Positions 7,247 through 12,696 of a stretch of 64,000 nt of DNA are shown here, piece by piece. Each line of letters begins with the position of its first letter. Within the stretch, counting starts at the first letter, position 1. The notes beneath the pieces are model-generated. The model saw only the letters and a list, made by a program, of their open reading frames with translations. It was not told the DNA's origin and did no database searches. The stretch is from Gemmatimonadota bacterium. GTDB taxonomy: Bacteria; Gemmatimonadota; Gemmatimonadetes; Gemmatimonadales; Gemmatimonadaceae. The translations under genes and the position numbers were made by a program. The DNA lies in NCBI GenBank assembly GCA_021299375.1, contig JAJTGR010000033.1, positions 124,001-188,000 of the forward strand, read 5' to 3'.

Positions 7247-8713
7247 TCAGGAGATCGGCTTGCCGGCGTTCGGGCCAGCCACCTGCTTCACCAGCTGATA
7301 CAGGAAGTCGAGACCGTCGTAGAAGCTTCTGATGCGCAGCTTCTCGTCGCGGCCATGGGCATTGGTCTCGCCCGGGGCCGAGAAGATGCCACTCACGCCA
7401 TAGGTGGGGATGCCGGCGTTGCGCAGGCGATACCCGTCGGTGGCGCCGGTACTCATGGTGGGAATGACCGGCACGCCGTTGAACATGGTCTTCGTGAGCT
7501 CCGTGGTGGCCCGCAGCAGCCCGGGGTTGATGGCGGCGGGGGCGCCATCGGTGCGGTCGGCGCGGGTGCCGGTGATCTGCACCGTGCTGTCGTTCACCAC
7601 GCGTTCGAGTGCCGCCTTGACCTGCGACGCCTTGCTCGTGGGCGCAATGCGGCAGTTCACGTTGGCAGTGGCCAGCTGCGGCAGCGCGTTCGGGGCGTGG
7701 CCGCCGCTGAGCATGGTGGCCACGCAGGTCGTGCGCAGCATGGAGGCATAGCGCGGGTCGGTGGACAGCATGCGCGCTGCCACGGTGTCCGAGGGATTGG
7801 CGACGATGGCCCTCATGGCCGCCGCCAGCGACGGCATCTCCACCTTGGCGGTCTGCTCGAAGAACGGCCGGGTGACGTCGTTGAGTTCAACGGGGAACGT
7901 GTACACCTGGATGCGCCCCAGCGCCGCGGCGAGCGCGTAGATGGCGTTGTCCTTGCGCGGCACACTGGAGTGCCCACCCGTGTTGCGCACGGTGAGCGTG
8001 AAGTCCTCGTAGACCTTCTCCGCTGCCTGAATGGAGTGGAACAGCGGCTGGTCGTCGGGGCCGAGTGTCCCGCCACCGCCTTCGTTGATAGCGTACTCGG
8101 CGTCGATCAGCTCGCGATGGTTCGCGATCAGCCAGCTCACGCCATTGTCGTTGCCCCCTTCTTCATCGGCGGTGAGGGCGAGGATGAGGTCACGCTCGGG
8201 CACCCACCCCTCCTGCTTGTAGCGCAGCAGGTTGGCGGTGAGGATGGCGGCCATCGACTTGTCGTCGGCGACACCGCGGCCCAGGAAGTAGCCGTTCTCC
8301 TCACGCATCAGGAACGGGTCGTGTGCCCAGTCGCTGCGGCGGGCCTGCACGACGTCGAGGTGGGCGAGCAGCAGGATGGGTCTGCCGCGCCCCTTGCCGC
8401 GGTAGCGCACGATGAGGTTCTGCTTCGCCGGCGCGCTCGCGGGCCCCACGAGGTGGATGTCGTTGGCGGGAAAGCCTGCCGCCCGGAAGCGCGCCGCCAC
8501 GGCCTCGGCGGCCTTGGTCACCGAGCCGACACTGTCGGCGGTGTTGATCTCCACCATCTCCTTGTAGATGGCGCGCGCCGCCGCCTGAGCCGGCGTGAGG
8601 GAGGCGGGGGCGCCGGGTGCGGGGCGCATGAGGGGCTGGGCGGCCAGGCCAATGACCGGCAGGGCGGTGGCCGCGAGCGAGGCCGCGGCGAAGGCAAGAG
8701 ACAGGGTACGCAT
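7247..8713 (-). CDS. Exported M20 family metallopeptidase
   Basis: The product is 488 residues from ATG 8713, which gives a good Sec signal (MRTLSLAFAAASLAATALPV). A longer frame from 8755 adds only basic residues. Predicted zinc ligands and catalytic residues of the M20 fold are present: H118 and D120 in LLAHLDVV, D150 in GRGVADDKSM, the E184-E185 pair in TADEEGG, E211 in NEGGG and H453 in NAHGRDE. A dimerisation lid domain lies at about residues 225-350. Members are carboxypeptidases or dipeptidases that use one or two zinc ions. Export suggests periplasmic peptide degradation. It converges with the ANTAR gene and is divergent from the tldD-like gene. Confidence 0.9.
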   Translation of the reverse strand: MRTLSLAFAAASLAATALPVIGLAAQPLMRPAPGAPASLTPAQAAARAIYKEMVEINTADSVGSVTKAAEAVAARFRAAGFPANDIHLVGPASAPAKQNLIVRYRGKGRGRPILLLAHLDVVQARRSDWAHDPFLMREENGYFLGRGVADDKSMAAILTANLLRYKQEGWVPERDLILALTADEEGGNDNGVSWLIANHRELIDAEYAINEGGGGTLGPDDQPLFHSIQAAEKVYEDFTLTVRNTGGHSSVPRKDNAIYALAAALGRIQVYTFPVELNDVTRPFFEQTAKVEMPSLAAAMRAIVANPSDTVAARMLSTDPRYASMLRTTCVATMLSGGHAPNALPQLATANVNCRIAPTSKASQVKAALERVVNDSTVQITGTRADRTDGAPAAINPGLLRATTELTKTMFNGVPVIPTMSTGATDGYRLRNAGIPTYGVSGIFSAPGETNAHGRDEKLRIRSFYDGLDFLYQLVKQVAGPNAGKPIS

Positions 8714-8835
8714 GGCTCGGAAAAGGCGATGGGGACGAGCGATAGGCCAACCCATGGAACAGAGCGCGTGCCCGTCGGTGCGTCAACACGGCCCCTGTCC
8801 GCGGCGTATGTTGGGAGGTCCCTCCAACCCTGCCC

Positions 8836-10467
8836 ATGTCCAGATCCCGCCGAGACTTCCTGAAAGCCGGTGCGACGGTGGCTGCCGGAACGCTGGTTGC
8901 CACCTCGCCCCTCCTGGCCGAGTCTTCCCGACTCCTCGTCCCCATCACCGACCTGCCCCCGGTCGATGATCCCGCCATCAAGGCGCTCATGCAGGTGGCG
9001 CTCGACGCCGCCATGAGCGGTGGCGCCTCGTACGCTGACGTGCGCGTGAACGCGCGCCGCCAGCAGAACGTCAACACCCGCGACCGGATCGTGCAAGGTG
9101 TCAGCGACACCGACACCTACGGGCTCGGCGTGCGCACGCTGATCGACGGTGCGTGGGGCTTCGCGGCTACCAGCCGCCTCGACAAGGACAGCGTGGCCAC
9201 CGCCGCCCGGGCGGCCATCGGGCAAGCGCGCGCCAACCGCGCCTCGCAGCTGCGCCCAGTGGTGCTGGCGCCGACACCCGGCAACCAGGTGGGCGAGTGG
9301 AAGAGCCCCATCGAGGTCGACCCGTTCACGGTGGCCATCACCGACAAGGTGGCGTACCTGCTCGCGGCCAACGAGGCGGCGCTCAAGGTGAAGGGCGTGC
9401 GCAACGTGACGTCGAGCATGTTCTTCCTGCGCGAGGAGAAGTCGCTCATGACCAGCGACGGCTCGTACATCGTGCAGACCATCTACCGCACGTCGCCGGG
9501 GATGAGCATCACGGCCGTGTCGCCCGATTTCCGCGACTTCCAGTCGGTGCAGAGCAACGAGGTCGCGCCCATGGGGCTCGGCTACGAGCACGTCACCAAC
9601 AGCAAGCTCATCGAACGCGCGCCCCAGTGGGCCGAGCTGGCGGTGCAGAAGCTGAGTGCCAAGCCGGTGGAACCGGGCCGCTACGACCTGCTTCTGCACC
9701 CGAGCAACCTGTGGCTCACCGTGCACGAGGTCATTGCCCACCCCACCGAACTCGATCGGGCCCTGGGCTTCGAGGCCAACTACGCCGGCACCAGTTTCAT
9801 CGCGCCACCGGATCAGGTGCTCGGCAAGCTTCGCATCGGCTCCGATCTGCTCAATGTCGTCGGCGACCGTGAGCAGAGGGGCTCCCTCGGCGCCATCGGC
9901 TGGGATGACGAAGCGGTCAAGCCGGTCAAGTTCGACATCATCCGGAACGGCGTGTTCGTGGATTACCAGACCACGCGCGAGCAGGCGACGCTCATGGCCG
10001 ACTATTACAAGCGCGTCGGCAAGCCGGTGCGCTCGTACGGTTGCTCGTATGCGCAGAGCTGGGCCGATGTGCAGTTCCAGCGCATGCCCAATGTGAGCAT
10101 GGTGCCGGGCAACAACGACGACACCTGGGACAGCCTGATCGCCAAGATGGACAAGGGCATTGCCATCGTCGGCGATGGCTCGTTCTCCATCGACCAGCAG
10201 CGCTACAACGGCCAGTTTGCCGGCCAGATCTTCTACGAGGTCAAGGGCGGCAAGATCGTCGGGCAGCTCAAGGATGTGGCGTACCAGTTCCGCACACCGG
10301 AGTTCTGGAAGTCGCTCAAGGCCATCGGTGGCCCGAAGAGCTACGAGCTGGGCGGCGCCTTCGGCGATGCCAAGGGACAGCCGGGGCAGTCCAACTCCGT
10401 CAGCCATGGCTGCGTGCCGTCGCTCTTCCAGCAGGTCAACATCATCAACACCGGGAGGACGGCATGA
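8836..10467 (+). CDS. tldD: TldD-like metallopeptidase with Tat signal
   Basis: The product is 543 residues. The N-terminus MSRSRRDFLKAGATVAAGTL carries an SRRDFLK twin-arginine motif followed by a hydrophobic stretch, so export in folded form is predicted. The TldD active-site motif HExxxH appears as HEVIAH (H297-H302), and the C-terminal SHGCVPSLF segment supplies a conserved cysteine. The C-terminal half matches the PmbA/TldD domain (GQIFYEVKGGKIVGQLKDVAYQ split across the beta-barrel). TldD works with TldE as a zinc protease on small peptides such as modified microcins. The next gene overlaps its stop by 4 nt and encodes the partner. An imperfect palindrome around 8811-8829 precedes the start. 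Cytosolic TldD is the classical form, so the Tat signal is notable. Confidence 0.9.
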   Translation: MSRSRRDFLKAGATVAAGTLVATSPLLAESSRLLVPITDLPPVDDPAIKALMQVALDAAMSGGASYADVRVNARRQQNVNTRDRIVQGVSDTDTYGLGVRTLIDGAWGFAATSRLDKDSVATAARAAIGQARANRASQLRPVVLAPTPGNQVGEWKSPIEVDPFTVAITDKVAYLLAANEAALKVKGVRNVTSSMFFLREEKSLMTSDGSYIVQTIYRTSPGMSITAVSPDFRDFQSVQSNEVAPMGLGYEHVTNSKLIERAPQWAELAVQKLSAKPVEPGRYDLLLHPSNLWLTVHEVIAHPTELDRALGFEANYAGTSFIAPPDQVLGKLRIGSDLLNVVGDREQRGSLGAIGWDDEAVKPVKFDIIRNGVFVDYQTTREQATLMADYYKRVGKPVRSYGCSYAQSWADVQFQRMPNVSMVPGNNDDTWDSLIAKMDKGIAIVGDGSFSIDQQRYNGQFAGQIFYEVKGGKIVGQLKDVAYQFRTPEFWKSLKAIGGPKSYELGGAFGDAKGQPGQSNSVSHGCVPSLFQQVNIINTGRTA

Positions 10468-11861
10468 GCGAGTTTGCTCCCCGTTCACTCTTCGCACCGG
10501 CCACCATCCTCTCGCGGGCCGAGGCGCAGGACATCGCGCAGCGTGCGTTGAAGAACTCACCGGCACCGGAAACGCGCGTGACCATCAACAGCGCGGCCCG
10601 CGCCGACACGCGCTTTGCACTCAACCAGGTGACCACGTCGGGCGAGAACAGCGACACGCAGGTCACCATCACGGCGTACGATGGCAACCGCGCGGCCAGC
10701 GTGAACACGAACCGCCTCGACGAGGCGTCGCTGGCCGCGGCGGCGAAGCAGGCCTACGAGATCGCCAAGCTCGTCCCTCCCAACCCCGAGCGCATGCCGG
10801 AGCTGGGCGCGCAGTCGTATCCGGCGGCGCGCGAGCGTGTGATCACCATGCCGACGCCTGCCGAGCGCGCGGCGGCGGCGAAGATCGTGACGGAGCTGGC
10901 GCGGGCGAACGACTTGATCGCGACGGGATTCATCGAGTGCCGGGCGGGCGCGACGGCGCTGGCCAACTCCAAGGGGCTGTTCGCCTACGACTCGAGCTCG
11001 GCCGTCACCATGACGAGCACCGTGCGCTCCCCCGACGGAACCGGCTCGGGCTGGGCGTGCAGCGACGGCAACGGTTTCGGCGATCTCGACCCGCAGGCGC
11101 TTGCGGCCACGGCCGTGCAGAAGGCCAAGGATTCGCGCAATCCGGTGGCCATCGAACCCGGCCGTTACACCACCATTCTCGAGCCCACGGCCGTGGGCAA
11201 TCTCGTGCAGCTCATTGCCGGGGCCATGCAGGCGCGTGCCGCCGACGAGGGGCGCTCTTTCTTCACCAAGCCCGGTGGCGGCAACAAGATCGGGCTCAAG
11301 GTGGTGGACGACCGCATCACGCTGATCTCCGATCCGGCCGACGCGTCGAGCACCAACGGCGGCTACGACGACGATGGCATGCCGCTCGAGAAGGTCACGT
11401 GGATCGAGAACGGCGTCGTGAAGACGCTCAACTATGATCGGTACTGGGCACAGAAGCAGGGAGTGCCGCCCACGCGCTCGGGGGGCGGTGGTTTCCGCGG
11501 CGCCGGCCGCTCGCTGCGCATGCTTGGCGGTAGCTCGAGCATCGCCGACATGGTCAAGGGCACCGAGCGCGGCGTCCTGGTGACGCGCTTCTGGTACATC
11601 CGCCCGGTGGACGCGCGGACGATTCTGTACACGGGGCTCACGCGCGATGGCACGTTCCTGATCGAGAACGGCAAGGTTACGCGGTCGATCAAGAACTTCC
11701 GCTTCAACGAAAGCCCGATCTTTTTCCTCAACAACCTCGAGGCACTCGGGCCGACCATCCGTATCAACTCGTCGGAGAACCTGTCGGCGGGTGGCTCGGT
11801 GTGGATGCCGCCCATCAAGGTGCGGGACTTCACGTTCTCGAGCCTGTCGGACGCGGTGTGA
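10464..11861 (+). CDS. tldE: TldE/PmbA-like partner of the TldD protein
   Basis: The product is 465 residues from ATG 10464, overlapping the tldD stop as ATGA, which implies translational coupling and a fixed subunit ratio. It has the PmbA/TldD fold (C-terminal region GVLVTRFWYIRPVDARTILY and TGLTRDGTFLIENGKVT) but no HExxxH motif, as expected for the non-catalytic subunit. There is no signal peptide (start MSEFAPRSLFAPATI), unlike its partner. If the pair works outside the cytoplasm, TldE would have to be carried through the Tat pore with TldD. A strong terminator hairpin follows at 11901-11951. Confidence 0.88.
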   Translation: MSEFAPRSLFAPATILSRAEAQDIAQRALKNSPAPETRVTINSAARADTRFALNQVTTSGENSDTQVTITAYDGNRAASVNTNRLDEASLAAAAKQAYEIAKLVPPNPERMPELGAQSYPAARERVITMPTPAERAAAAKIVTELARANDLIATGFIECRAGATALANSKGLFAYDSSSAVTMTSTVRSPDGTGSGWACSDGNGFGDLDPQALAATAVQKAKDSRNPVAIEPGRYTTILEPTAVGNLVQLIAGAMQARAADEGRSFFTKPGGGNKIGLKVVDDRITLISDPADASSTNGGYDDDGMPLEKVTWIENGVVKTLNYDRYWAQKQGVPPTRSGGGGFRGAGRSLRMLGGSSSIADMVKGTERGVLVTRFWYIRPVDARTILYTGLTRDGTFLIENGKVTRSIKNFRFNESPIFFLNNLEALGPTIRINSSENLSAGGSVWMPPIKVRDFTFSSLSDAV

Positions 11862-11985: not shown

Positions 11986-12696
11986 TCAGACCGCCTGCAC
12001 GAACACGCACCCCGCCTGCTGTGCCATCACGTTGGCGAAGATGCCACTGGGCTGCATGATCACGCCCGGCACCAGCATGCCGTTGGCCTTCGTGCGCGCC
12101 TCGGCTGGCGTGAGCTTGTCCTTCTTCTGAATGAGCGACACCACGGACCGGTAGGCGAGGCCGCAGCCCAGCGCGATGGCGCCGTTGGCGATCTGCTTGT
12201 CGAGCAGCAGCGAGGCCATCGAGGCCGGCGGCTGCGGACCGTTTGCCGACGGCAGCACCGGATTGGTCTGCTGGATCTTGCCCGCGTCGTTCTTGATCTT
12301 CTCGGCCTTGCCCACCTCGTAGGTGGTCCAGAACTCCTGATTCATGGCCAGGAAGATCGCGTTGTGCCGAATGACCATCACCGCGGACAGGTCGGACTGC
12401 GGTACCTTGAGCGTGTCCATGTACTGGCGCTGCCAGATACCCGAGCGCAGCACACCCACGCCGCCCTCGATTTCAGGGATGTCGAACATGGCCTTGTGTT
12501 TGCCGGTGATGCGCGCCGCCCAGGAGGTGTCCCACGGGTCCTGCTGCTGCTGTTCCCATCCCGCAAGCGACGAAGCCGCGGTCGGTACCGTGTCGGCGGC
12601 GGCCACCGTGCTGGCGTGACCCGCCGTCGGCAGTACGGCGAGGGAAGTGGCGCCGAGCCCGGCCTGTTTCAGGAATGCGCGACGGTCGGTGGACAT
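11986..12696 (-). CDS. Tat-exported hypothetical protein, DsrE-like fold suspected
   Basis: The product is 236 residues from ATG 12696. The N-terminus MSTDRRAFLKQAGLGATSLA is a textbook twin-arginine signal (DRRAFLK). A longer frame from 12762 would bury this signal and is rejected. The mature part includes AVMVIRHNAIFLAMNQEFW, IANGAIALGCGLAYR and a C-terminal LVPGVIMQPSGIFANVMAQQ segment. The last resembles the end of DsrE/DsrF-like proteins, where a strand is followed by a helix rich in short side chains and a Q-x-G turn. DsrE-like proteins bind or transfer sulfur on cysteine; here cysteines occur at the GCGLAYR and AGCVFV positions. The fold call is by motif resemblance, not proven. Confidence 0.65.
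   Translation of the reverse strand: MSTDRRAFLKQAGLGATSLAVLPTAGHASTVAAADTVPTAASSLAGWEQQQQDPWDTSWAARITGKHKAMFDIPEIEGGVGVLRSGIWQRQYMDTLKVPQSDLSAVMVIRHNAIFLAMNQEFWTTYEVGKAEKIKNDAGKIQQTNPVLPSANGPQPPASMASLLLDKQIANGAIALGCGLAYRSVVSLIQKKDKLTPAEARTKANGMLVPGVIMQPSGIFANVMAQQAGCVFVQAV

Follow-up and report, generated by a model that had tools for sequence, protein, structure and literature searches.

TldD/TldE is a two-subunit peptidase associated with the trimming of modified peptides inside cells (MccB17), and in Escherichia coli the pair is taken to be cytosolic. The tldD–tldE gene pair described here occupies positions 8836–11861 of a 64,000-nucleotide stretch of DNA (hereafter the window) from a bacterium of the Gemmatimonadota (family Gemmatimonadaceae; assembly GCA_021299375.1, contig JAJTGR010000033.1, positions 124,001–188,000). 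Its TldD begins with a predicted signal peptide for twin-arginine translocation (Tat), and its TldE carries no recognizable signal. It is likely that the pair belongs to a Tat-exported branch of these metallopeptidases, in which TldE leaves the cytoplasm as a signal-less hitchhiker on TldD. On the level of the family, the comparisons tilt toward an ancient and separate TldD/TldE branch of Gemmatimonadota, Bacteroidota, and sphingomonad-type Alphaproteobacteria, which would be exported in preassembled form, would constitute the sole TldD/E of many genomes, and would have exchanged a metal-binding Cys for Asp at about its exit from the cytosol. We regard this as an exported branch of a known family that is real, broad, and apparently undescribed.

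The gene pair and its fold

The first gene, tldD (8836–10467, forward strand), encodes a 543-amino-acid catalytic subunit, which belongs to the exported Asp type and in which Pfam PmbA_TldD domains 1, 2, and 3 (PF01523, PF19290, PF19289) all score above their cut-offs. The second, the pmbA-like tldE (10464–11861, forward strand; 465 amino acids), matches only these same three domains and has no HExxxH motif, which identifies its product as a TldE/PmbA subunit. By direct reading, the stop codon of tldD (TGA) overlaps the start codon of tldE (ATG) in the sequence ATGA (10464–10467, forward strand), and the GGGAGGA located inside tldD (10453–10459, forward strand) is the likely ribosome-binding site of tldE. 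Both proteins score below the curated cut-offs of the NCBIfam equivalog models, namely 44.4 against 513 bits for NF008006 and 100.6 against 635 bits for NF040952 in the case of TldD, and 37 against 438 bits for the PmbA equivalog in the case of TldE.

AlphaFold models were built as single chains from alignments of 71 rows each, and reached a predicted local distance difference test score (pLDDT) of 90.2 for TldD and 92.4 for TldE. The best match of the TldD model in the PDB is E. coli TldD itself (5nj5_C; VIA Z 35.6, 458 aligned residues, root-mean-square deviation 3.0), while the best structural match outside the TldD/PmbA family reaches Z 3.9. The TldE model matches TldE/PmbA structures and keeps the full three-domain fold. 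The window pair resembles the E. coli TldD/TldE (PmbA) complex (PDB 5NJ5, PMC5810440) in its fold with three PmbA_TldD domains and in having HExxxH in TldD only, with TldE as the inactive partner. The two TldDs share about 20% identity in the structural alignment, and they differ in that the third metal ligand of the E. coli protein, Cys454, is replaced by Asp511 in the window TldD, which additionally has the Tat signal.

The Tat signal of TldD

The window TldD starts with MSRSRRDFLKAGATVAAGTLVATSPLLAES, where SRRDFLK, which fits the Tat pattern S/T-R-R-x-F-L-K, is followed by a hydrophobic stretch. The predicted Tat signal peptide MSRSRRDFLKAGATVAAGTLVATSPLLA (8836–8919, forward strand) is recognized by TIGR01409 with 18.1 bits, above the cut-off of 16.7, and marginally by PF10518 (weighed below). 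Cleavage would occur after about residue 28, and the mature TldD/TldE pair would then have a computed mass of about 105 kDa. Residues 1–36 of the TldD model show pLDDT below 50, as expected of a signal. As a gauge of chance, a comparable Tat rule was applied to all 2,667 potential starts that the window offers in frames open for 100 codons or more; five pass, and these comprise TldD, a small Tat-type gene at 12696 on the reverse strand, and three others, two of which appear non-genic by eye.

The motif and the hydrophobic stretch are kept in proteins of other phyla that are roughly 40–50% identical to the window TldD and whose N-termini are otherwise variable, and the nearest Cys-type relatives lack a hydrophobic N-terminus. 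In three TldDs a lipobox directly follows the Tat region (IAGC in L117 and L124, VAGC in L144), a feature that is hard to explain without export, and these three proteins are probably membrane-anchored lipoproteins. Together with the single change on the tree presented below and the occurrence in three phyla, the lipoboxes make Tat export of TldD a prediction that is well supported by comparison, and we infer that the signal is used for export.

Distribution and phylogeny

To survey the family, queries were used that are independent of the signal, with an alignment (A1) that begins at residue 41 and with search patterns internal to the protein. The resulting census comprises 191 TldDs with a complete start, after removal of 14 of 205 rows that were truncated at the 5′ end; they are unique by identical sequence only, so that close relatives remain. 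All 141 Asp-type TldDs have Tat-like N-termini, 139 by script (134 with RR and 5 with RK) and two by eye (L063 and L151), which start with SRRDFL or SRRDFI and fall below the hydrophobicity limit of the script. The five RK members are all from Bacteroidota (L185–L188 and L193). Among the Cys-type TldDs only one in 35 is Tat-like (L208, discussed below). The remaining 15 rows were assigned neither Asp nor Cys: five are cut at the 3′ end and have Tat, three have Tat and no HExxxH, one (L112) has Tat and a ligand missed by the pattern, and six are canonical with the ligand missed likewise. One of these six canonical TldDs (L218) passed the Tat rule through a chance RRRVD. The 141 Asp rows came from a contig search (66), Gemmatimonadota (32), Bacteroidota (26+1), Pseudomonadota (11+1), another search (3), and the window (1).

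For a tree, 76 TldDs with less than 75% identity to one another were analyzed by a quick search with midpoint rooting, and were labeled as in the census (by eye for L063 and L151), with Tat assigned only if the TldD model score exceeded 250. On this tree the Tat label switches a single time and the ligand two times, and 51 Tat rows stand on one side of a branch with 97% support in the Shimodaira–Hasegawa-like approximate likelihood ratio test, with L167 adjacent. L167 (537 bits) and the TldD of Nonomuraea gerenzanensis (L247, 511 bits) are the highest-scoring relatives without Tat under the branch model; unlike the window TldD, both have Cys as the third ligand, in FTCGKAEPVQ and FNCGKGQPGQ, respectively. 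The E. coli-like TldDs of the survey (L177–L183) have no signal either, unlike the window TldD. A repeated correlation of Asp with Tat was considered and rejected as statistics, given the one Tat change and the one or two independent pairs. The association of Asp with export describes the clade and is not a statistical law. As judged from these sequences, a Tat-type TldD together with a signal-less TldE is a clade-wide trait in Gemmatimonadota, Alphaproteobacteria, and Bacteroidota.

The distribution over genomes points in the same direction. A search with domain 1 in the source genome (4.48 Mb, 96% complete) gave six matches that form three TldD/TldE pairs; all three TldDs are Tat-tagged (SRRDFLK in the window, TRRDFLA on contig 106, SRRDFLK on contig 14), none of the three TldEs has a signal, and TatC is present. 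This search found no signal-less TldD in the genome, hence no cytosolic partner for TldE. Domain-1 matches were found in 21 of 41 Gemmatimonadota genomes, of which 20 were inspected (G023, scoring like G021, was left out). The TldD type of the window occurs in 13 of these 20; it is the only type found in 12 of them, and the thirteenth (G037) has one extra, motif-less match. The other inspected genomes include five with only a signal-less Cys-type TldD and two with Tat-TldDs lacking HExxxH. In Bacteroidota, two of 41 sampled genomes have domain-1 matches, one pair each and both of the exported type. The alphaproteobacterial genome G041 has two exported TldDs plus a canonical one on another contig (L154; HEAVGHGLEGD, CGKGGQ), and G068 has an exported pair plus two further matches elsewhere. 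Exported TldD genes stand in tandem in Polymorphobacter multimanifer (L142, G041 contig 10) and in a member of Bacteroidota (G490 contig 12), and with two TldDs for one TldE in the G041 tandem an exchange of subunits is possible. When 13 such TldDs, aligned with their signals removed, served as the query, 30 of 398 Pseudomonadota and 30 of 296 Bacteroidota genomes gave a match at E 1e-20 or better; those in Pseudomonadota include some weaker ones to Cys types, and since the Pseudomonadota search scored only the three best candidates per genome, its counts are lower bounds.

Active site and third metal ligand

The metal-binding and catalytic motif HExxxH is present in the window TldD as HEVIAH (residues 297–302; 9724–9741, forward strand) and matches HExxxH 262–267 of E. 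coli (PMC5810440), with H297, E298, and H302 invariant among the 71 TldDs of a second alignment (A2). The place of Cys454 is occupied by Asp511 (codon 10366–10368, forward strand), as FGDAKGQPGQ aligns with CGKxGQ and with the FNCGKGQPGQ of Nonomuraea, and the clade has the signature D-[GA]-K-G at this position. Ghilarov et al. (PMC5810440) state that Asp can replace Cys454 as a ligand and name Gemmatimonas sp., so that Asp511 marks a variant and not a non-member of the family, and a role of Asp511 in metal binding would follow from its position. His524 (VSHG; codon 10405–10407), 13 residues past Asp511, had been considered as the replacement of the Cys ligand and was dropped because the Nonomuraea sequence places Asp511 at the Cys position; it is conserved without exception in the 71 A2 sequences, whether they are of the Asp or the Cys type.

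Two Tat-TldDs from distant Gemmatimonadota genomes (L073 in G006 and L074 in G017) have lost both HExxxH and the third ligand, and in these pairs neither subunit looks catalytic from its sequence.

TldE and its coupling to TldD

Neither PF10518 nor TIGR01409 matches the window TldE, whose model has its first helix from residue 18 and pLDDT below 50 at residues 5–11. Across the survey, none of 154 TldE-type rows (two of them cut at the 5′ end) showed a Tat motif or a hydrophobic N-terminus. Of these, 132 score as the TldE type of the window, including the L167 partner of a Cys-type TldD, and the other 22 include nine partners of Cys types and seven E. coli-like TldDs (L177–L183) that had been sorted among the TldEs. 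A lax KR rule is passed by two of 161 TldE rows (KRALA and KRVLA), both inside the first helix, and a hydrophobic window occurs in two of the 161, which by eye is not a signal. The apparent signal-bearing TldE L212, with RREFL, was rejected as a TldD fragment. In G002 an RR lies upstream of the likely start, where the signal check found no signal. The first-pass annotation of this stretch, which had read an SRRDFLK Tat signal on TldD and an ATGA-coupled TldE without one, is therefore borne out, and the survey of homologues and partners that it proposed extends it in that the trait is clade-wide and the metal ligand of the clade is altered.

The two genes stay together. In 113 of 128 exported pairs they overlap or lie no more than 30 nucleotides apart, and 73 of the 128 permit an overlap of −4, where the tldE start was picked nearest to the tldD stop, a choice that favors −4 overlaps. 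The distances among TldDs and among TldEs agree closely (Mantel r 0.90 over 53 pairs, a value that none of 2000 permutations reached), an agreement in which common descent has a part, and the three pairs of the source genome agree too.

Transport of the pair and alternative explanations

The following scenario may account for these features. The subunits, made from overlapping genes, would meet in the cytoplasm, close their shell, and load the metal there. The Tat system would recognize only the signal of TldD and would move the folded complex over the membrane with TldE as a hitchhiker. Outside, the closed two-subunit shell would trim unfolded or short peptides, like E. coli TldD/E, its substrates probably being peptides in the periplasm, and its metal would be coordinated by both HExxxH histidines together with the Asp in the Cys454 place (His-His-Asp). 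Carriage by TldD appears to be the most economical reading for TldE, because the genes stay coupled and co-evolve, because no sampled TldE has a signal, and because 12 of the 13 Gemmatimonadota genomes with this type show no other TldD. In E. coli, moreover, the complex is active only with both subunits and the TldD homodimer is unstable (PMC5810440), and by this precedent an exported TldD without TldE would be inactive. Co-transport on one signal has been described for the E. coli hydrogenase-2 HybOC and for PaoABC (PMC4273604), which like the window pair have a Tat signal on one subunit only, but which are cofactor-containing redox enzymes with demonstrated transport, whereas the window pair is a peptidase whose transport is predicted. 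As for the extracytoplasmic TldD/E protease that the first-pass annotation had envisaged, its TldD half is well supported by comparison, while for TldE the sequences contain no direct sign of crossing and carriage by TldD is the simplest account.

Several points weigh against export of the pair. The placement of TldE and of this TldD outside the cell derives from sequence and not from experiment. For the signal itself, the Pfam model TAT_signal (PF10518) reaches 21.9 bits on the window TldD, 0.8 under its cut-off of 22.7. Asp and the Tat signal each arose about once, so that the link between them rests on essentially one event, and a test on independent pairs, with one or two pairs only, has no power. 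L208, from the Bacteroidota search (G712), combines a Cys ligand with Tat, which means that Asp is not needed for export. Part of the agreement between TldD and TldE distances, as said, is inherited jointly. TatC is found in 295 of 296 Bacteroidota genomes, and with such near-universality its co-occurrence is uninformative as a test of Tat dependence. Cysteine content gives mixed directions: in Alphaproteobacteria TldE shows no difference (P 0.66) and exported TldD is richer in Cys than canonical TldD (P 0.0004), whereas in Gemmatimonadota exported TldE is lower (P 0.02; 85 vs. 9, in a flawed grouping) and exported TldD gives P 0.06. The grouping is crude, as TldE was called exported at scores above 380, the phylum was assigned by locus number, and the nine include a few TldEs that are distant or partial but accompany exported TldDs (e.g., those of L063 and L073). 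Cysteine content was accordingly not used as a mark of the oxidizing side.

Of the alternatives, it is conceivable, though unlikely, that TldE acts as a cytosolic escort, which holds the TldD precursor inactive or proofreads its folding or metal loading and is then released, so that a TldD homodimer works outside. The absence of a signal from every TldE-type row and the position of tldE close behind tldD would suit such an escort equally, and for the TldD of Sulfolobus solfataricus activity of the homodimer has been reported (cited in PMC5810440), which would allow TldD to function alone outside and weighs against carriage of TldE as well. Against an escort speak the dependence of E. coli TldD on TldE and the instability of its homodimer, and the full three-domain fold of TldE and its co-evolution with TldD would seem more than an escort needs.

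Less probable still is that the Tat motif does not export, and that TldD stays cytosolic or, anchored by a signal that is not cleaved, on the inner side of the membrane, with the pair working as in E. coli. The cytosolic location assumed there, the slightly low PF10518 score, and the RK that replaces RR in five Bacteroidota members are in line with this idea. It fits poorly with a motif and hydrophobic stretch maintained across a three-phylum clade amid variable N-termini, with the lipobox added in three members, and with the lack of a hydrophobic N-terminus in the nearest Cys-type relatives. That TldE leaves by a route of its own and meets TldD outside is very improbable, as apart from its missing signal nothing direct favors it, its sequence suggests no such route, and co-transport with a tagged partner offers a simpler solution, for which there are precedents.

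Relation to earlier reports

The replacement of Cys by Asp in Gemmatimonas is already published, in one sentence of the Discussion of PMC5810440, and probably concerns the same clade. The main text of that paper, by word search, does not contain Tat, signal peptide, signal sequence, periplasm, or secreted. Tat export of TldD was not found in print in text searches that covered mostly literature outside subscription journals and bioRxiv, and where TldD and twin-arginine are mentioned together, the text retrieved treats the two apart. As a separate lead, the Myxococcus xanthus “Peptidase U62” (MXAN_2519), of the TldD/PmbA class, appears in a list of proteins enriched in outer membrane vesicles (PMC4158809); it may be either a TldD or a TldE.

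Neighboring genes

Upstream of the pair lies a divergently transcribed gene for an M20-family peptidase with a hydrophobic N-terminus (7247–8755, reverse strand; PF01546, 100.4 bits), and facing tldE is a gene for a small protein without a Pfam family (11986–12696, reverse strand), which has a predicted Tat signal (MSTDRRAFLKQAG). Homologues adjoin TldD at 22 loci for the M20 peptidase and at 17 for the small Tat protein (the window copy excluded). These loci are all from close relatives, in a comparison in which many of the other loci offered only short flanks. The M20 peptidase perhaps shares a peptide-using function with TldD/TldE.

Implications

If the proposed scenario is true, a closed-shell peptidase would serve the periplasm of many bacteria, where it may perhaps trim food peptides that are taken up or finish peptides that are exported. 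Names in the records such as “TldD/PmbA family protein” are silent on the compartment. Natural hitchhiking on the Tat system would also extend beyond the redox enzymes named in PMC4273604 to a peptidase, and with the TldD/TldE pair it could be tested in a simple way whether a protease has its assembly proofread by Tat. Finally, the replacement of Cys by Asp beside an export signal would provide a testable change of an active site upon the move to a more oxidizing place.

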